A DNA stretch of 64,000 bases from Desulfobacterales bacterium (lineage in GTDB: Bacteria; Desulfobacterota; Desulfobacteria; Desulfobacterales; Desulfosalsimonadaceae): NCBI GenBank assembly GCA_018335195.1, contig JAGXKN010000017.1:1-64000 (forward strand). The letters run 5' to 3'. Numbering within the stretch: the stretch's first letter is position 1; every line of letters starts with the position of its first letter. A program made the translations under genes and the position numbers. Below, piece by piece: positions 32,421 through 56,347 of this stretch. Below the pieces are notes generated by a model. It was not told the DNA's origin, made no database searches, and was given only the letters and a program-made list of their open reading frames with translations.

Positions 32421-33464
32421 TTATTGGATCCGTACCTGGCCGCATGAATCCGGTCCCGCGACTTCACCGATAATTGCGGCTTCGATGCCGGCATCCCGCA
32501 TTGCGGAAAGACATTTTTCCGCCCGGCCTGCGGCTACGGAAACAACAAGCCCTCCGGAAGTCTGGGGATCGAACATCAAGTCTGCAAGGGTCTCGTCCAC
32601 TGCATCGTCAATAAAAACCACATCTGAGAAGTGTTTTTTGTTGGTGTAGGCGCCTGCAGGAAACAGGCCCATGGCGCCGTACTCCAGCGCCCGGTCCATG
32701 ACCGGCACGCTTCGGGTATCCAGCCGGATCCGCTTTTTGCCCGCCCGCGCCATTTCCAGCACGTGTCCGGCCAGGCCGAATCCGGTGATGTCCGTGCACG
32801 CGGTGGCCGCAAACCGGCCGGCGATTTGTGCGGCTTCCCGGTTTAGACAGGCCGCGGTTTCCACCAGTGATTCCAGTGCTGCCCCCTCCGCAATGCCTCC
32901 CTTGAGCGTGGTGGCCAGCACGCCCATACCGACGGGTTTGGTCAGAATCAGCCGGTCTCCCACATTGGCCCCGCCGTTGGTGAGGATATGCTCCGGGTGC
33001 ACCAGCCCGGTCACGGACATGCCGTATTTGAATTCCGTGTCGTTTACGCTGTGACCGCCCACCAGAACGGCTCCGGCTTCGTGGAGCTTATCGAGTCCGC
33101 CTTCCAGGGTTTGCGCAAGAACCGACTCGGGTAGTTCATCTGCGGGAAAGCACACGATGTTCATGGCTGTCACCGGGTAGCCGCCCATGGCGTAAATATC
33201 GCTCAGGGCGTTTGCTGCCGCGATACGGCCGAAATCATAAGGGGAATCCACGATGGGGGTGAAAAAATCCAGGGACTGGATCATGGCCGTAGTTTCGTTG
33301 ATCCTGTAAACGCCCGCATCGTCGGAACTTTCCATGCCCACCAGCAGATCCGGGTGGGTATTGACCGGCAGCTTTGCCACAACTCTGTCCAGGACCCCCG
33401 GACCAAGCTTTGCCGCTCATCCCGAGGCCCGGGTTTTGGCGGTCAGTCTGTAATCGTCGCCCAT
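32421..33464 (-). CDS. selD: Selenophosphate synthetase SelD, itself a selenoprotein (Sec16)
   Basis: 347 aa including one selenocysteine. It makes selenophosphate from selenide and ATP. The frame that starts at ATG 33464, with AAGAGG upstream, meets TGA at 33417-33419 (codon 16) and continues with AAKLGPGVLDRVVAKLPV, restoring the family's SGUAAK catalytic motif, where other SelD proteins have Cys or Sec. The Lys of this motif is also catalytic. A SECIS-like hairpin begins 13 nt downstream of the TGA. Without recoding, the protein would begin at 33380 and lack its active site. It lies 19 bp behind pyrK and supplies selenium for SelD itself and for the peptide gene at 54327. Confidence 0.95.
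33387..33403 (-). promoter_or_regulatory. SECIS-like hairpin in selD
   Basis: On the minus strand GTCCGG and CTGGAC form a 6-bp stem (one G-U pair) around the loop GGGTC. It begins 13 nt after the TGA at 33417-33419, in the place and style of bacterial SECIS elements, which have a GGU in the apical loop. Confidence 0.7.
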
Positions 33465-48233: not shown

Positions 48234-49490
48234 CTATTTTTTCCCGCCTTTTTTAATTTTCCGTCTGTCCAGAGGGGTGCCTTCCCAGGCGTGTTCGAGT
48301 ACCATCCGGGCGTCATCCGGAAGCAGTTCCTCGGGGTTGTACATTCGGGCCCCGTCGGCCATGATGTTTCGGGCGATTTCCGACAGCATGGATTTCGGGA
48401 TCGCCTGCTCGCCCTGGGGATTGTAGATTTCCTTGAGGAATCGGGGATGTTTTCCGTCGGTGGCATCATGCAGGTCCTCGTTGAGTCGGCGCACAAGGGC
48501 AATGACTTTTTCGGGTCTTTCGTTTTTACGGGTTTGCGCATACGTTTCCGGGCCGCCGAGGGCAAACAGCAGCTCGCCGATATAGCCGGCCCGGCGGTGA
48601 AGGTTGTACTCCATTCCATAGGGCATCAGAATGCTCATGCAGTTGCCGTGGGGCACGTGGCAGATCGCGCCGATGGTGTGACCGATGTTGTGCACCATCC
48701 CGACCATGGAGTTGGAAAACGCCACCCCGGCCATGGTGGAGGCATTGGCCAGTTCAAGCCGGGCTTGTGTATCATCCGGGTTTTTGACCACGTGCAGCAG
48801 GTTTTCGCTGATTGCCCGGATGGCCCGCAGGGCAAAGGCGTCGCTCAAGGGGTTTTTTTCCATGCAGTAATAGGACTCGCAGGCATGGCTCAGCGCATCC
48901 ATGGCAGTGGCGGCGGTTAGAAACGGGGGAAGGGTTTTGGTCAGGCGCGGGTCCAGCACAGCCAGATCCGGCAGCAGGAAATAAGAGACAAAGCCCATCT
49001 TCACGTGACGGTCCGGATCGGCAATAACGGCCACCAGGGTCATTTCTGAGCCCGTCCCGGTGGTGGTGGGCAGGATGGCCAAGGGATTGAGTCTTTTGCG
49101 CACCTTCCCGGCACCCTGGTAGTCCAGCAGGGATCCGCCGCCCAGGGAGACCACGATATTAACACCCTTGGCGGTATCAATCACCGATCCGCCGCCCACG
49201 GCAAGGATGGAGTCGCATGATTCCCTGCTGTAAATGCCGGCGATCTCGTCTACGACCTTGTAATCCGAATCCACTGGGATATTGTTGTAAACAGGACCGA
49301 TCTGCAATTCATCTCCCATGGCATCCCTGACCATGTCAATGAGCCCCGCGTCTTCCACACCCTTGTCCGTGATAATCAGCGGGCGATTCGCATTTAATCC
49401 GGCCAGGTGGCCCGGGATCTTTTCAAGGGCGTTTTCGCCGGATATCGTTTTGGCACGGCTGCAGAAATCATAAAAATCTGGCATGAACAT
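48234..49490 (-). CDS. Iron-containing alcohol dehydrogenase
   Basis: 418 aa. NAD-binding GGGSVIDTAKG and PTTTGTGSE are standard. All four iron ligands are present: Asp198 and His202 in MDALSHACES, His267 in MVHNIGH and His281 in HVPHGN, with the spacing of FucO-type enzymes. It interconverts an alcohol and aldehyde or ketone with NAD(H). It lies directly downstream of a degenerate paralogue, and aor is divergent, suggesting aldehyde turnover. Confidence 0.93.
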   Translation of the reverse strand: MFMPDFYDFCSRAKTISGENALEKIPGHLAGLNANRPLIITDKGVEDAGLIDMVRDAMGDELQIGPVYNNIPVDSDYKVVDEIAGIYSRESCDSILAVGGGSVIDTAKGVNIVVSLGGGSLLDYQGAGKVRKRLNPLAILPTTTGTGSEMTLVAVIADPDRHVKMGFVSYFLLPDLAVLDPRLTKTLPPFLTAATAMDALSHACESYYCMEKNPLSDAFALRAIRAISENLLHVVKNPDDTQARLELANASTMAGVAFSNSMVGMVHNIGHTIGAICHVPHGNCMSILMPYGMEYNLHRRAGYIGELLFALGGPETYAQTRKNERPEKVIALVRRLNEDLHDATDGKHPRFLKEIYNPQGEQAIPKSMLSEIARNIMADGARMYNPEELLPDDARMVLEHAWEGTPLDRRKIKKGGKK

Positions 49491-49506
49491 GGCGCCCCCC
49501 TATGTG

Positions 49507-50112
49507 TTACAGATTCCTGTAAATGACCTTGATCAGGCCCGGAGAAAAGGACTTCAGATAAATCCGGACTCGGTTGAGGTGCTTTTTCACCGGCGAGAGC
49601 TCGGACCACTTGGGATATCTTTTTACCGCCAGCCTGGCAATAACTTTGGGCAGCAAATGAATTTCCACGATATCGATCACCCGGACCACGGCCAGTGCTT
49701 GGGGCAAATTGCCCTCGACAATGAAGCGGTCATACGCGAAAGCCTGAGCGGTGGATTCCTGAAACGTAAAGACTTTGAATGCGGATTCGAGGTTTTTGAT
49801 GTCCAGGCCCAGGTCGATTTTTCTGCCATACAGGTTCCATCCCAGGTATTTGACATTGCCTTGTTTGTCTTTGCCGATCACCATATAAGGGCCGCCCGGG
49901 GCCACTCCGAGATAGAAGGTAAACCGCTCGGGAAGGTCGCCAAAGATTTTTTTGACGGATTGATCCACCTTTGACGCGGCCTCGATGGCACGCCCCACGA
50001 TGAGCAGCATGACAAATACATAGCCTTTCTTGATCAGTTTGGTCCCGGGGGGAATCTCGGGATATCTGCTGATGTTCAGGGTTTTGTTCACGGATTTTGA
50101 AATGCTTTTCAT
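49507..50112 (-). CDS. Uncharacterised protein, SCP2-like
   Basis: 201 aa, no signal peptide. The middle (FTFYLGVAPGGPYMVIGKD; GWNLYGRKIDLGLDIKNLES) has the beta-strand pattern of a sterol carrier protein 2-type lipid-binding fold, but this is only a weak resemblance. The C-terminus is basic. It overlaps the upstream dehydrogenase-like gene by ATGA and lies 16 bp ahead of the functional alcohol dehydrogenase, so the three are translationally linked. Confidence 0.55.
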   Translation of the reverse strand: MKSISKSVNKTLNISRYPEIPPGTKLIKKGYVFVMLLIVGRAIEAASKVDQSVKKIFGDLPERFTFYLGVAPGGPYMVIGKDKQGNVKYLGWNLYGRKIDLGLDIKNLESAFKVFTFQESTAQAFAYDRFIVEGNLPQALAVVRVIDIVEIHLLPKVIARLAVKRYPKWSELSPVKKHLNRVRIYLKSFSPGLIKVIYRNL

Positions 50113-51266
50113 CTGCCGCCTCCTTTTTGGGTCTGCTTGATGATCTCCAGGCAGTCCTGGGGCGAAAACGGGAAATCCTTTCTGGATCCGGCATGCACGC
50201 AGGCCTTTTCAAGCCGGTAAGCGGGGATGTGAAGGGATGAAAGGGTTTCGGGGATCTGCCCGCGGGTTTCGTCAAGAAGCGCAAGAAACATCTCAACGCC
50301 CTTTTGCGGCCGCTGTTGTTCGGGCGTTTTTGCGTATACCGCCATGCCGCCTGCGGCCAGTAGCAGATCATCCCCGGGCGGTCCGGTTTTCTGCGTCATC
50401 CATGCCAGGGCCGCAGGTGTGAAAATCCGTATAAAAACACCCCTGGCGATGCCGGTGATTTTTTCAAGTTCCTCGGCAAGCCCCCGAACCACACCGGGAG
50501 CGGCGTTTGCAGCGGCAATACCGGCCATAACGCCGGCGTTGGCCATTGCCAGGCTGTGTTTTCTGTTTTTCGGTCTTTTGATGGCTTTTTTCAGGCTGGC
50601 GGCTGCAAATCCAACCCCGGCATGGGCAAATGCATCTTTCATGGGGCTGTGCTCCCCGTCCAGGAATGCGGTTACGGCATTGTCCATGGTTGTCAGAGCG
50701 GATTGCGCAGCACACCTGCGGGTGCATGCCGCTGTCATTCGCTTGTCAAGGATAATGGCATCCGGGTACAAAAAATTCGAGGTCAGGCGCCGGTTGTCAA
50801 CGGTTATTGTTTTGCCGGACTCGCTTCCGTTTGTGCAGCATGCGGGAATATGGATAAATGGTTTTAAGCGTTTTCCCGGCGGGCTGCCGTTAAAAAACTG
50901 GAAAAGGTCCTGCGTGTCATGGGAAACTAGAAGATTGGCCGCCCGGGCCACATCTGCCACAGGGCCGCCGCCCACCGCGACAATGGCATCACAGCCCCGC
51001 TCGGCAAACAGCACGGCCGCCTGGCGGGCCAAGCTGATGCCGGCATAATCGCGGATTTCATCAAAAATCCCGCCCAGGGGGCACCCGGAATCGGCAAACG
51101 CCCGGATCAGGGTTTTGTCCAGCCCCCGCCGCGTATGCTCCCGGCCCGTGATGACCAGCGGCTTATGGGCGTCGTTGCTTGCCAGTTCCGTGGGGATGCT
51201 TTCCAGGGCGCAGGCGCCGGAGGTGATTTTCGGCTGGCTGTAAAATTCGTAGTGAAGATTCTGCAT
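50109..51266 (-). CDS. Iron-alcohol-dehydrogenase paralogue lacking metal ligands
   Basis: 385 aa with the overall Fe-ADH fold: VAVGGGPVADVARAAN keeps the dinucleotide loop. The metal site is degenerate. Asp195 remains in TTMDNAV, but the next ligand is Thr199, and the helix that should carry two histidines reads PGVVRGLAEELEKITGIARG with none. It is therefore unlikely to bind iron and may be a structural or regulatory partner of the intact enzyme downstream, or have changed chemistry. It leads the operon; RBS and promoter are in the spacer to aor. Confidence 0.8.
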   Translation of the reverse strand: MQNLHYEFYSQPKITSGACALESIPTELASNDAHKPLVITGREHTRRGLDKTLIRAFADSGCPLGGIFDEIRDYAGISLARQAAVLFAERGCDAIVAVGGGPVADVARAANLLVSHDTQDLFQFFNGSPPGKRLKPFIHIPACCTNGSESGKTITVDNRRLTSNFLYPDAIILDKRMTAACTRRCAAQSALTTMDNAVTAFLDGEHSPMKDAFAHAGVGFAAASLKKAIKRPKNRKHSLAMANAGVMAGIAAANAAPGVVRGLAEELEKITGIARGVFIRIFTPAALAWMTQKTGPPGDDLLLAAGGMAVYAKTPEQQRPQKGVEMFLALLDETRGQIPETLSSLHIPAYRLEKACVHAGSRKDFPFSPQDCLEIIKQTQKGGGR

Positions 51267-51646
51267 GATCCATCTCCTCTAAGGGCGCAAATCGTTTTGG
51301 AAAGGATGGTGCAGTCGGGTCCGCGTGTCGGTACACCGTCTTGTTTTGTGATGAGGGTCAATCAATGAAACCATACCCCGGGAAAAAAGTCAAAAGTCGG
51401 GAATCGGGAAACACGAAACGTCGGTATGGATTGACACGTCATTCTAAGTCAGGTATGATAAATTTGCAATCACTTATTTTGCTGTCCGGGGAAAACGACT
51501 CATCCTGCCGAAGAATTACTGTTGCTTGTGTGCGGGAATCGGATGTAGACTGCAGGACCAAAGCCTGCGGAAAGATTGCGGACGCCCGGCCGGCAGGGCG
51601 AAAACGATTCTGCGCACTTTTCGCAAATATTCTAAAGGAGTCTGCC
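51267..51646. other. Divergent promoter region between the dehydrogenase operon and aor
   Basis: No gene seen. This 380-bp stretch must contain both promoters. AAAGGAG at 51634-51640 is the aor ribosome-binding site. I see no obvious operator. Confidence 0.4.
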
Positions 51647-53521
51647 ATGCAGGAAATTGTGGGCACAAGCAACAAGGTGCTGGAAGTGGATTTGACAAAC
51701 CAAAGTTTTTCTGTCTCCGAGATTTCGGACAAGGACCGCAGGCTCTATCTCGGCGGCAAGGGCATCGGGCTGAAACTGCTTTATGACCGTCTGTCCCCGG
51801 GCATTGAGCCGCTCGGGGAGGAAAACATATTTGTCCTGGCCATGGGGGTGTTCATGGGCACCGGCGTGCCGTGTTCCGGCCGGTTCGAAGCGGTGACAAA
51901 GTCGCCGCTTACAGGTTTGATGACCTCGAGTTCATGCGGCGGCCCGTTCGGCATGGCCCTGAAGACTTCCGGATGGGACGCCGTGGTGATCCGGGGGCAA
52001 GCTCCCGGGCCCGTTTACCTCCGTGTGGATGCAGAAGGGGTCGAGTTCAAGCCTGCCGGTCATCTCTGGGGGCAGGGTACCGGAAAAGCCGAAAAAGCCA
52101 TGCTTGCCGAAGGCTCGGGCGCCATGGTGATCGGCCAGGCCGGGGAAAACCAGGTTCGATTCGCCAATATCCGCTCCGGGCATCGCTTCCTGGGAAGAGG
52201 CGGCATGGCCGCAGTGCTGGGGGCAAAAAACGTCAAAGGCATGGTGGCAAACGGAAATGAATACAAGATCGTACCCGCGGACAGGGAGAAGTTCCGCAAG
52301 TCCAATCGCCGGTTTTTTCAATATATCAATCACAATTTCGTGACTGCCGGCTCATTCCGGGACTATGGAACCAACGCAAACCTCAATCCCGGAAACGCCG
52401 GCGGCATCCTGCCGATCCGCAACTTTACCGGCGGCAATCACGGTCTTGCCGCCAAGGTGTCCGGCGAAACCATGGCCGAAAGATTCAACACCAAGCACGA
52501 CACTTGCAAGCCTTGCGCCATTCTGTGCGGACACCGGGGCACCATCCGGGGAGAGCAGCGCCATGTGCCGGAATACGAAACCATTACGCTCATGGGCACC
52601 AACCTGGAGATTTTCGATCCCGAGATTATTTCGGACTGGAACGAGCTTTGCGCGGAATACGGACTGGATACCATCTCCACCGGCGGCACCCTGGCCTGGG
52701 CCATGGAGGCCACGGAAAAGGGCATGATCTCCACGGATCTGAGATTCGGTTCGCCCGAGGGGGTTGCCGGGATGATCGAAGATATTGCATTCTGCCGGGG
52801 GATTGGAAAGGACCTGGCCATGGGATCGGCCGAGGCATCGAAAAAATACGGGGGCGAGGACTTTGCCATGCATGTCAAGGGCATGGAACTGCCCGGATAT
52901 GACCCGCGGGGGGCGTTCGGCCACGGCCTTTCCTATGCCACTGCCAACCGGGGCGGATGTCACTTATCGGCATATGCGGTGGGCCTGGAGGTGCTGCTGG
53001 GCATGGCCGAACCTCAGGCGCTTCGCTGGAAACCCTACATGGTCAAGTTCATGGAAAACAGCTTTTCCGCGGTCAACTGCCTGCACATCTGCATGTTTAC
53101 CTCTTTTGCGGTTTTTCTGGAGCCGCCCCTGATCCGGTTTACCCCCAATTTCATGATCAGGCTGTTAAATCAGAACATGTCCAAACTCGCCCTGAATCTC
53201 ATGGACGTAAGCCTTTGGCCCGAGCTCTGGCATGCCATCCTGGGCAAGCGCTATACACCGTATCTGGGCATGCTCGCCTTTTACAAAGCCGGCGAACGGG
53301 TGCATGTGCTGGAGCGCTACATGAACACCCGGGAGGGCATATCCAAAAAGGATGATACACTGCCCCGTCGCCTGCTCACCGAGGGACGCAAATGCGATGC
53401 AAAAGAAAAGACCGTTCCCCTGGAGCCGATGCTGAAAAAATATTACAAGACCCGGGGGTATGACAAAAACGGCATTCCCAGGGAAAAAACTCTGCGCCGC
53501 CTGGGCATAGAACCAGGATAA
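51647..53521 (+). CDS. aor: Aldehyde:ferredoxin oxidoreductase family protein
   Basis: 624 aa tungsten-pterin enzyme. RRLYLGGKGIGLKLLYDRL, the [4Fe-4S] cysteines of DTCKPCAILCGH (about residues 287-293) with a fourth in the NCLHIC segment near 478, and cofactor-binding stretches such as EYETITLMGTN and GLDTISTGGTLAW are present. It oxidises aldehydes to acids with ferredoxin. ATG 51647 has AAAGGAG 6 nt upstream; a longer open frame is non-coding. The shikimate kinase starts 8 bp after the stop. Confidence 0.93.
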   Translation: MQEIVGTSNKVLEVDLTNQSFSVSEISDKDRRLYLGGKGIGLKLLYDRLSPGIEPLGEENIFVLAMGVFMGTGVPCSGRFEAVTKSPLTGLMTSSSCGGPFGMALKTSGWDAVVIRGQAPGPVYLRVDAEGVEFKPAGHLWGQGTGKAEKAMLAEGSGAMVIGQAGENQVRFANIRSGHRFLGRGGMAAVLGAKNVKGMVANGNEYKIVPADREKFRKSNRRFFQYINHNFVTAGSFRDYGTNANLNPGNAGGILPIRNFTGGNHGLAAKVSGETMAERFNTKHDTCKPCAILCGHRGTIRGEQRHVPEYETITLMGTNLEIFDPEIISDWNELCAEYGLDTISTGGTLAWAMEATEKGMISTDLRFGSPEGVAGMIEDIAFCRGIGKDLAMGSAEASKKYGGEDFAMHVKGMELPGYDPRGAFGHGLSYATANRGGCHLSAYAVGLEVLLGMAEPQALRWKPYMVKFMENSFSAVNCLHICMFTSFAVFLEPPLIRFTPNFMIRLLNQNMSKLALNLMDVSLWPELWHAILGKRYTPYLGMLAFYKAGERVHVLERYMNTREGISKKDDTLPRRLLTEGRKCDAKEKTVPLEPMLKKYYKTRGYDKNGIPREKTLRRLGIEPG

Positions 53522-54048: not shown

Positions 54049-54326
54049 AAATCGAGCGGGCGCCGGGCGCGCGTGATCCCGCGTATCCACCGCGATTCGG
54101 AGTCCCCCGCCCGGAAACCTTTGTGCACCCGCACCGTGCAATTCCCCGTCTCATCCATGTCGAAGACTGCTTTCCGGCCCGGTGTTTTCACATCCTTTAC
54201 TTGAGTCCCGCCGCGAGTTTATTGTTCGACAACGCATAAAACGGGCATTATTTTTTTACAATACAAGGCGGAGATGTTCGGGTTGCTTTTTTCAACACTG
54301 ATTTTTAAATCAAAGGAGGGGGTAAA

Positions 54327-54620
54327 ATGGATGGAAAAGATTTGAAAAAATTTCTTGCCGGCCTGACGATTGCAGGTCTGGTAAGCCTCGGCGGCGGGTC
54401 CCTGCCAGCGGTCCATGCAGGAAGCGGCTGAGGTTCCAGCGGCTGAGGGGCCAAAGAAGACAGCGCAGGTGGCGCTGACGAAAAACAAGAGCATAGGGAC
54501 CATATGACGGAAGAAGAAAAAGAAGAAATGGAGGCCAAGGACAGAGAAGAAAAGCAGGACAGGGAGAAACAAAAAAAGGATGAAAATGAAGATGCCGGTA
54601 GAGACAACTCCGGCGATTAA
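54327..54620 (+). CDS. sbtA: SbtA-like selenopeptide RiPP precursor (two selenocysteines)
   Basis: 97 aa when two in-frame TGAs (54429-54431 and 54444-54446) are read as Sec35 and Sec40. AAAGGAGGGGG is 5 nt before the ATG. A basic start and a hydrophobic leader (KKFLAGLTIAGLVSLGGG) end at VHA, a plausible export or leader cut site. The core GSGUGSSGUG follows, and then an extremely acidic Glu/Asp/Lys-rich tail ending GRDNSGD at TAA. The two Sec repeats match my recollection of the SbtA thio(seleno)oxazole precursor family. The radical SAM gene downstream matches SbtM. A SECIS-like hairpin follows the second TGA. The frame stays open for 58 codons past it, so this is not an accidental read-through. 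Confidence 0.9.
54461..54477 (+). promoter_or_regulatory. SECIS-like hairpin in sbtA
   Basis: CAGCGC and GCGCTG form a perfect 6-bp stem around the loop AGGTG. It begins 14 nt after the TGA at 54444-54446. The GCAGGT run matches the E. coli fdhF SECIS apical loop as I remember it, and spacing mirrors the selD hairpin. Confidence 0.75.
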
Positions 54621-54688
54621 TGGTTGATGATGCGGCATAAAGTCATGCCGTTTAAGTGACGAGCGCCTTGTGTTGCCAGGACCTATCA

Positions 54689-54722
54689 AGAGCCGGCATG
54701 TTCAGACTGCCGGCTCTTTTTC
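54689..54722 (+). terminator. Terminator or attenuator between sbtA and sbtM
   Basis: AGAGCCGGC (54689-54697) pairs with GCCGGCTCT (54709-54717), followed by T-rich sequence. It lies in the 143-bp spacer and would make the precursor mRNA abundant and the maturase transcript rarer, as is usual in RiPP operons. Confidence 0.85.
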
Positions 54723-54763
54723 CGCATTATTGAAAACACTGAATTTTTCCCGCGGAGCAGTTT

Positions 54764-56347
54764 ATGTCCGAATCCGTTTTCAGCCCGGATCCGCAGCGAC
54801 GATATCCTGTTTGCCTTGCAATTCTGCCGGATCTGAAAAGCAGTATGCCAAAAGAGGTCCTGCTGTCCGAGTTTCTGCAAACCTCTGCCGATCATGACGT
54901 TTTTCCTCCGTATCTTGTTGACCTGGCAAGGATAGAGGAGTGCAGGTATGCCCTGATAAATTCCCCGCCGTGTTTTCCGGAAAGCGTGCCGGCACGAAGG
55001 GTCAATCCGGCCCTTGACCTGCTTACCGTAAACTGGTCCAACCTGCCGGAATTCATCAATGATCACAGTGTTGTTCCCGCGCCCGGCACGGCGTATGTAC
55101 TTGTCTGGATCCCGCCCGGGTCCCGGGATGTCAGGATTTGCAGCGCAGACGCGGATGATCTGCTGGCTCTTAAAATCGTGGCCGAGGGCACGGATCCTGC
55201 CAGGGCTGCGGCCGAAGGCGGCATTTCAGTCGGCGCCATCGAGAATCTGCTTTTCCGCAGCCAGCAGCGCGGCCTGATCCTGGCTCCGGATACCCTGATA
55301 CGGCGTCCCCGCCGATTTCCCGCAGGGCAGATAAGCAATCCGGATTTTTTTTCCTCGGAAACCTTTACGCTGCAATGGCACCTTACCCAGGCATGTGATC
55401 TTAACTGTCGTCACTGTTACGACAGAACCGAAAGAAAAGCCATGACACTGCAGCAGGCGCTGGGGGTTCTGGATACGTTCCTTGATTTCTGCAGCCGGCA
55501 TCGCGTGTTCGGGCACGTGTCTTTTTCCGGTGGCAACCCAATGCTTTACCCGCATTTTGACAGGATTTACAGGGAGGCTGCAGACCGTGGTTTTATGACC
55601 GCGGTGCTCGGCAATCCCATGCCCACCCGGCGGATTGATAAAATGATGGCGGTTCAGAAACCCGGATTCTACCAGGTCAGCCTCGAAGGGACGAAAGCGC
55701 ACAACGATTACATCCGTGGCCCGGGGCACTATGATCGCACGATGGATTTTCTGAAACAACTTGGTGATCTCGGGGTCTGCCGCATGGTGATGCTCACCCT
55801 GACCCGGCACAATATGGACCAGGTACTGGAACTGGCGCAATCTTTGAAGAGACATGCCGAGTTGTTCACTTTCAACCGCCTGGCAAGCGTGGGGCAGGGG
55901 GCGCAGCTCTCAGCCGCCCCTCCGGAATCGTTTCCGGGTTTTCTGAGTGCGTACATGGAAGCAGCAAAGTCCAATCCCGTTATGGCTTATAAGGACAACC
56001 TGTTTAATCTTTTGAAATGGCAAAAAGATATTTCGGTGGGCGGAGGCTGCACAGGCCACGGCTGCGGAGCGGCATTCAACTTCGTATCAGTGCTGCCTGA
56101 CGGAGAAGTGCATGCCTGCAGGAAATTTCCTTCATGGATCGGCAATATTTACGAGCAGTCCTTAAACGATATATACCACGGCTTTTATGCCGGAAAATAC
56201 AGGGGCGGGTCGAGCGCCTGCAACGAATGTCCGGTCCGCCCGGTCTGCGGTGGATGCCTTGCAGTGAGCTATGGGTACGGCCTTGACATCTTCAATGAGA
56301 AGGATCCTTATTGTTTCTTGGAAAATCCGAAAGGCGGGACGTTTTAA
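54764..56347 (+). CDS. sbtM: SbtM-like radical SAM/SPASM maturase
   Basis: 527 aa. About 200 N-terminal residues precede the radical SAM motif CDLNCRHC (near 211-218) and FSGGNPM. The C-terminal SPASM region has GGGCTGHGCG, VHACRKF and the cluster ACNECPVRPVCGGC followed by DPYCF. This is the architecture of peptide-modifying maturases that form thio- or selenoether/oxazole-type links. Its partner is the selenopeptide gene 143 bp upstream. ATG has GGAG just before it. The identification as SbtM rests on memory of the family and the paired precursor. Confidence 0.85.
   Translation: MSESVFSPDPQRRYPVCLAILPDLKSSMPKEVLLSEFLQTSADHDVFPPYLVDLARIEECRYALINSPPCFPESVPARRVNPALDLLTVNWSNLPEFINDHSVVPAPGTAYVLVWIPPGSRDVRICSADADDLLALKIVAEGTDPARAAAEGGISVGAIENLLFRSQQRGLILAPDTLIRRPRRFPAGQISNPDFFSSETFTLQWHLTQACDLNCRHCYDRTERKAMTLQQALGVLDTFLDFCSRHRVFGHVSFSGGNPMLYPHFDRIYREAADRGFMTAVLGNPMPTRRIDKMMAVQKPGFYQVSLEGTKAHNDYIRGPGHYDRTMDFLKQLGDLGVCRMVMLTLTRHNMDQVLELAQSLKRHAELFTFNRLASVGQGAQLSAAPPESFPGFLSAYMEAAKSNPVMAYKDNLFNLLKWQKDISVGGGCTGHGCGAAFNFVSVLPDGEVHACRKFPSWIGNIYEQSLNDIYHGFYAGKYRGGSSACNECPVRPVCGGCLAVSYGYGLDIFNEKDPYCFLENPKGGTF

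Follow-up and report, generated by a model that had tools for sequence, protein, structure and literature searches.

Can a bacterial frame with two TGA codons five codons apart, followed by a single hairpin resembling a selenocysteine insertion sequence (SECIS), yield a peptide with two selenocysteine (Sec) residues, and what would become of such a peptide? This question is raised by a locus at positions 54,327 to 56,347 of a 64,000-nucleotide (nt) stretch from a Desulfobacterales bacterium (assembly GCA_018335195.1, contig JAGXKN010000017.1, positions 1 to 64,000), referred to below as the window. An original prediction, made from the sequence alone, had proposed here the precursor (SbtA) of a Sec-containing ribosomally synthesized and post-translationally modified peptide (RiPP) and its radical S-adenosylmethionine (SAM) maturase (SbtM). 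Our analysis confirmed that the locus is a real SbtA/SbtM pair, well beyond chance, because 75 other unique precursors carry the same leader, nearly all of them have TGA or Cys codons in like sites, and the hairpin covaries. The family is already known, and the window holds an unusual form of it. In our preferred reading, to which we assign a probability of about 0.7, two Sec residues are inserted through one shared SECIS, the leader would be held by a domain of SbtM that resembles a RiPP recognition element (RRE), selenooxazoles would be formed, and the peptide would be exported with cleavage of its leader. The features of the gene pair are the following.

54312-54319, forward strand: strong Shine-Dalgarno sequence of sbtA, AAAGGAGG, read from the sequence
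54327-54620, forward strand: sbtA precursor gene (TIGR04081), 97 codons, ATG at 54327, TAA at 54618-54620
54327-54419, forward strand: leader, residues 1-31, signal-peptide-like, conserved through the family, ending in PAVHA ahead of GSGUG
54423-54452, forward strand: 15-bp tandem duplication, SGUGS + SGUGA, with units at 54423-54437 and 54438-54452
54429-54431, forward strand: TGA 1, codon 35, predicted Sec35, with the loop of the sole SECIS-like hairpin 35 nt downstream
54444-54446, forward strand: TGA 2, codon 40, predicted Sec40, with the hairpin loop 20 nt downstream
54461-54477, forward strand: SECIS-like hairpin, CAGCGC-AGGTG-GCGCTG
54688-54718, forward strand: terminator-like hairpin between sbtA and sbtM, 11 pairs and a 9-nt loop, then TTT, identified by eye
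54764-56347, forward strand: sbtM, radical SAM/SPASM maturase of 527 residues (TIGR04082; Pfam Radical_SAM and SPASM)

Both family models were matched above their curated cut-offs, which supports the proposed assignment; the lack of a family hit for either protein had been named as the outcome that would count against it. Using the NCBIfam models, the sbtA frame scored 39.4 bits against TIGR04081 (SbtA; cut-off 30.5, residues 1-24) and SbtM 644.5 bits against TIGR04082 (cut-off 350, model positions 28-516 of 516), and each model gave one match above cut-off in the whole 3.29-Mb genome. The second-best NCBIfam model for SbtM, rSAM_ACGX (TIGR04340), reached 167.3 bits, under its cut-off of 400. 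Other elements of the original prediction also stood up to inspection, namely, the TGA pair in the context GSGUGSSGUG within a 97-codon frame (codons 35 and 40), the strong Shine-Dalgarno sequence, and the downstream SPASM-type radical SAM gene, which begins 143 nt past sbtA and carries the corresponding Pfam domains. The view that standard gene callers would miss the peptide has to be qualified, since an NCBI model, TIGR04081, names the precursor, which is thus not invisible to annotation. The pair resembles the SbtA/SbtM thio(seleno)oxazole RiPP system (TIGR04081/TIGR04082) in that both models were passed, the predicted Sec lies in SGUG, the maturase is adjacent, and radical SAM and SPASM motifs are present, but it differs from the family norm in its two SGUG units, five codons apart on one SECIS-like hairpin.

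The genome contains a tRNA-Sec gene (selC; 76.6 bits, anticodon TCA), selB (340.6 bits), selA (611.7 bits), and selD (TIGR00476, 361.5 bits), so that the absence of selA, selB and selC, on which the Sec reading could have foundered, does not apply. The last of these genes lies inside the window.

32529-33449, reverse strand: selD match (TIGR00476), with an in-frame TGA at 33417-33419 (RASGUAAK) and a hairpin loop GGT 20 nt downstream

SelD is accordingly a predicted selenoprotein itself, and the Sec reading of TGA is supported twice within the window.

For comparison, we used the best 80 of 376 SbtM relatives in named genomes, the titles of which were mostly Desulfobacteraceae, Desulfobulbaceae or Deltaproteobacteria. 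Carriers in culture include Desulfosarcina alkanivorans (L069) and Desulfogranum japonicum (L052). Searching with a leader profile based on nine seed sequences, we obtained 80 precursor hits, and after the removal of duplicates (L016, which is the window again, and repeated identical proteins) 76 unique precursors were retained. Outside these 76 are L070, L077, and L088, retrieved with an iterated model, and 19 later hits, among which L114 looks spurious. No SbtA was obtained for 12 of the 92 loci L009-L100, six of which have at most 350 nt of contig left ahead of sbtM. SbtM was present in 12 of the 98 genomes of relatives (own genome counted) and in 48 of the 389 genomes of the order. The typical precursor consists of the conserved leader followed by units like SGUGGxKDSAVSxE, and sbtA is mostly found directly ahead of sbtM, with L070, L092, and L093 as exceptions. 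The number of motif TGAs per precursor ranges from 0 to 5, with three in 36 and two in 26 of the 76 precursors; three precursors do not contain any TGA. In relatives it is the TGA-containing frame that is conserved, and not a TGA-free one.

Hairpins with a G[G/U] loop accompany these TGAs throughout the family. Within 45 nt downstream, they were present for 191 of 194 motif TGAs versus 20 of 50 Cys codons of the same motif, and only 3 of these Cys codons had a hairpin at 14-24 nt. Of the internal core TGAs (those followed by over 16 further codons of the frame), 140 out of 149 had a hairpin loop 14-24 nt downstream, with a usual family distance of 17-21 nt, as compared to 35.2 ± 4.1 (maximum 47) in 100 resamplings of synonymous codons for the same protein. 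The stem covaries. Among 92 distinct sequences that were selected by loop letters only and have the loop at 20 nt, pairing at the six stem positions was 99, 100, 100, 90, 92, and 79%, and the inner three occur as four or five standard pair types each, reflecting compensatory changes. Shifting the register by one base in either direction caused nine of the twelve values to drop to 2-16%, the others being 34, 54, and 87%. For a loop distance of 17 nt (47 sequences), pairing amounted to 74-96%. In the 19 further SbtA hits, a hairpin was observed at 17-23 nt for 41 of 44 motif TGAs. This covariation implies that the repeated DSAVSxE residues are largely the translation of the SECIS. Plain minimum free energy (MFE) z-scores were weak and did not help, and Rfam gave no match.

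Several family members show further arrangements. The C-terminal TGAs of L069, L012, L058, and L115 have their SECIS-like hairpin past the apparent true stop, i.e., in the 3' untranslated region. The SbtA frame at L115:678-1325 comprises 216 codons and ten motif TGAs at a spacing of 19-21 codons; SECIS-like hairpins were scored for nine of the ten, the seventh having a mismatched stem and that of the tenth lying beyond the stop.

The original prediction had mentioned a SECIS-like hairpin, which is indeed present; there is, however, one hairpin for two TGAs and not one for each. Published rules for bacterial SECIS elements comprise a loop of 3-9 nt, a stem of 4-16 bp, a G in the first two loop positions, a distance of 16-37 nt from the UGA, and an MFE of -7.5 or lower (PMC13188914), and the window hairpin agrees with them (6 bp, loop AGGUG, 20 and 35 nt, -9.1 kcal/mol). 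In the window, L014, and L018, this sole hairpin follows TGA 1 at 35 nt and the second site at 20 nt, and the two copies of the duplicated 15-mer are identical at 13, 14, and 14 of 15 positions, respectively. The second copy in L018 has TGC in place of TGA, so that the first TGA there would depend, on its own, on a hairpin 35 nt away. The precursors of L014 and L021 are the same, as are those of L018 and L023, and together with the window and L017, in which sbtA is off the contig, these loci form a single clade in the SbtM tree (support 100/100). In the sister rows L015, L019, L020, L025, L026, and L027, the first TGA retains a hairpin at 14-24 nt. L057, outside the tree and with an SbtM 50% identical to that of the window, likewise shows 35 nt between a TGA and its hairpin, and another TGA lies within that interval.

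Judging from these sequences, a tandem duplication of SGUGA is the likely cause of the layout with two sites and one hairpin. We predict that both TGAs are decoded through the single hairpin, and we infer that TGA 1 is decoded from a distance of 35 nt. Two other accounts of the layout were considered and set aside. A private second SECIS for TGA 1 could be drawn in the window as a GGUUCC/GGGGCC pairing around TGA 2, but L014 and L018 fold otherwise. A deletion that fused two Sec modules was less satisfactory than a duplication, given that the 15-mers match at 13-14 of 15 positions versus a maximum of 11-13 for other in-frame neighbouring 15-mers.

Archaeal two-Sec genes also have a single SECIS but, unlike the window, in the 3' untranslated region (PMC9499178). 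The bacterial TsoB (UxxxxU) has two Sec five residues apart, the spacing seen in the window, and the passages of the source covered are silent on whether its two codons share a hairpin (PMC13188914). A 2016 review credits Haft and Basu (2011) with proposing Sec-containing RiPPs (PMC4979651), and a 2026 review contains the entry 'Selenobacteriocin, TIGR04081, SGUG, 2 Sec' (PMC13188914). Titles and abstract openings of the papers listed, among them PMC9499178 and PMC12013277, held nothing on point on a shared bacterial SECIS or on exported Sec-containing RiPPs. The sharing of one SECIS by two bacterial codons and the export of the product are thus two testable ideas absent from the passages covered.

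What happens to the peptide is suggested by its leader. The leader-like N terminus noted originally is common to the 76 unique precursors and approximates MDxKDLKKxLAGLxIAGLxxxGG, that is, a basic start and a hydrophobic middle, and then A-x-A or a lipobox-like Cys. A rule-based search found a lipobox or [AV]xA at the proper position in 64 of the 76 precursors, as compared to 25.1 ± 3.9 (maximum 35) in 500 trials in which residues 21-40 were shuffled; the window belongs to the A-x-A type and L010, for instance, to the lipobox type. Codon usage sets the leader end apart from the core, with 24 Cys and 1 TGA at the leader-end site (residues 26-30) versus 33 Cys and 193 TGA at core sites (Fisher p = 8e-17, uncorrected for relatedness). 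The motif may differ between close relatives, as in L042 (VPGHA) and L056 (LPGC), which form a pair in the tree (100/98). Beyond residue 31, the remaining 66 residues are acidic (14 E and 9 D versus 8 K and 4 R), in agreement with the acidic tail initially described. The features of the leader make it likely that the peptide is exported and its leader cut during export, presumably by the general secretion route, which fits because the pair lacks any other recurring neighbour family among frames of 80 codons or more. Of 81 loci, 77 had the SbtM family and 9 the next most frequent genuine neighbour family, families at 15 and 6 loci being probable spurious antisense frames of SbtA. No recurring exporter, protease, or immunity gene was found beside the pair among these 81 loci, considering frames of at least 80 codons and with many short flanks.

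Some precursors depart from the common pattern at their leader end or C terminus. Codon 29 of the L013 sbtA is a TGA at the lipobox position (TLSAU), where relatives have Cys; a sequencing error, a Cys-to-Sec change, or a genuine Sec may be at its origin. L089 and L091 have two distinct sbtA genes in tandem ahead of one sbtM, one with and one without a lipobox. In several precursors (L032, L035, L036, L038-L040, L047, and L054), (K)AIEGC or AVEGC takes the place of the SGUGG with which others terminate, which puts a Cys at or near the extreme C terminus.

The maturase has three regions of relevance for the fate of the peptide.

54989-55309, forward strand: RRE-like N-terminal domain of SbtM, residues 76-182, AlphaFold2 predicted local distance difference test score 93.3, order b-b-b-a-a-a
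55394-55417, forward strand: CxxxCxxC motif CDLNCRHC, residues 211-218, its three Cys invariant in 57/57 sequences
56063-56233, forward strand: SPASM domain (Pfam SPASM), residues 434-490

Cys 429, 434, 452, 486, 489, 495, 498, and 517 of SbtM are likewise invariant in 57 of 57; L032 and L057 had been omitted from the alignment and the tree owing to a stop within their stretch. A structural comparison of the whole SbtM model hardly probed the N-terminal domain, which was then folded alone. The order of elements in the resulting model, three strands followed by three helices, corresponds to the description of the RRE fold, and the model gave moderate structural matches to RRE-containing RiPP enzymes. 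The sequence of the domain gave nothing below E 1 against solved structures. The model thus suggests that this domain likely holds the leader of the precursor. At eight loci (e.g., L072), a small gene on the same strand with a zinc-ribbon-like CxxC...CxxC start was observed about 1.4-1.6 kb after the sbtM start.

The original prediction knew the family only from computational description and was aware of no characterized product, which needs amending. In vitro, the SbtM WP_083768621 acted on both Cys and Sec substrates with removal of four hydrogens, and nuclear magnetic resonance identified its Cys product as a thiooxazole (Lewis et al. 2021, via PMC11002830). A product, location, or role of an SbtA/SbtM pair in vivo was not found in the literature listings and passages covered.

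Taking these data together, sbtA is predicted to be translated with two Sec residues by means of one hairpin, and the leader would dock on the RRE-like domain of SbtM. By analogy with the in vitro work, SbtM would then oxidize the Gly-Sec sites to selenooxazoles in the cytoplasm, and the modified peptide would be exported as its signal-peptide-like leader is cleaved. The hairpin at 54688-54718 would lower sbtM relative to sbtA, favouring the precursor. Terminator-like hairpins between sbtA and sbtM were detected for 29 of the 76 precursors versus none of 76 in a control stretch, although at least one of the 29 (L082) resembles a SECIS hairpin instead; that of the window is absent from the output of the scan, which allowed loops of up to 8, and from that of the family-wide script.

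We put forward a broader proposal tentatively, at somewhat less than even odds: one SECIS would serve two UGAs after the 15-bp duplication, and SbtA products would be exported or lipid-anchored selenooxazole peptides of the envelope, equivalent to bufferins but with selenium and with a radical SAM enzyme in place of the MNIO. Bufferins are copper-binding RiPPs with signal peptides and thiooxazoles, and the enzyme class responsible for this chemistry is unrelated to the radical SAM enzyme SbtM. The same difference applies to HvfA and methanobactin (MNIO/DUF692), the enzyme being an MNIO there and a radical SAM protein here, where in addition the residues are Sec. No DUF692/MNIO match was obtained among the nine window proteins scanned, and the likeness to bufferins is functional only. 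SkfB, CteB, and SuiB, radical SAM maturases of other RiPPs, form thioether or Lys-Trp links and not oxazoles. By analogy, we favour binding of a soft metal or envelope redox chemistry as the role of the exported peptide.

How do other explanations compare? A chance or decayed frame that is no gene would be in keeping with two in-frame TGAs, but it retains practically no probability in view of the 75 other unique precursors and the family model match above cut-off, and is refuted by the SECIS covariation. It is unlikely, though by no means negligible, that only TGA 2 encodes Sec, with TGA 1 mostly terminating translation or being misread and the duplication being a near-neutral accident that lowers the yield. 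A distance of 35 nt greatly exceeds the 17-21 nt common in the family and comes close to the upper bound of 37 nt in the published rules, and the layout was seen here in three species only. Yet 35 nt is inside the range of 16-37 nt, TGA 1 is kept as TGA in the three species, with TGC as the second copy in L018, and the tail and hairpin are conserved behind it.

A little less plausible still, we consider that the same Sec-containing RiPP is made but that its leader is merely the recognition sequence of SbtM, that a peptidase encoded elsewhere frees the product in the cytoplasm, and that this product acts as a bacteriocin or signal. The label 'Selenobacteriocin' (PMC13188914), the strong conservation of the leader, as expected of a recognition sequence, and the RRE-like domain predicted in SbtM would all accord with this, but it does not account for a leader end that alternates between A-x-A and lipobox, for an end-site Cys that is almost never TGA when core sites mostly are, or for the lack of a recurring peptidase or exporter family beside the pair. 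Improbable in our view is that the Sec residues are kept as free selenols, in a redox or metal-binding selenopeptide, and that SbtM has another task in vivo. The in vitro chemistry does come from another SbtA/SbtM pair, but sbtA usually lies just ahead of sbtM, and an SbtM acts in vitro on substrates with Cys or Sec, which lose four hydrogens (PMC11002830). Against our preferred reading, in which both TGAs are Sec and the oxidized peptide is exported, thus count the unusual distance of TGA 1, the few species with this layout, and the foreign origin of the in vitro data, as well as 12 of the 76 precursors to which neither a lipobox nor A-x-A could be fitted.

Upstream of the pair, the window contains two iron-containing alcohol dehydrogenase genes and an aldehyde ferredoxin oxidoreductase gene (48234-53521); these families do not recur beside SbtM in the list of neighbour families.

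The shared hairpin of this locus is a natural experiment on the range of action of one bacterial SECIS and on how often it can act. The modular growth of the family, with up to ten predicted Sec codons in L115, offers a testable bacterial model of multi-Sec decoding, and the evidence from the leader points to the periplasm and envelope as the places in which to look for a peptide likely bearing oxidized Sec.
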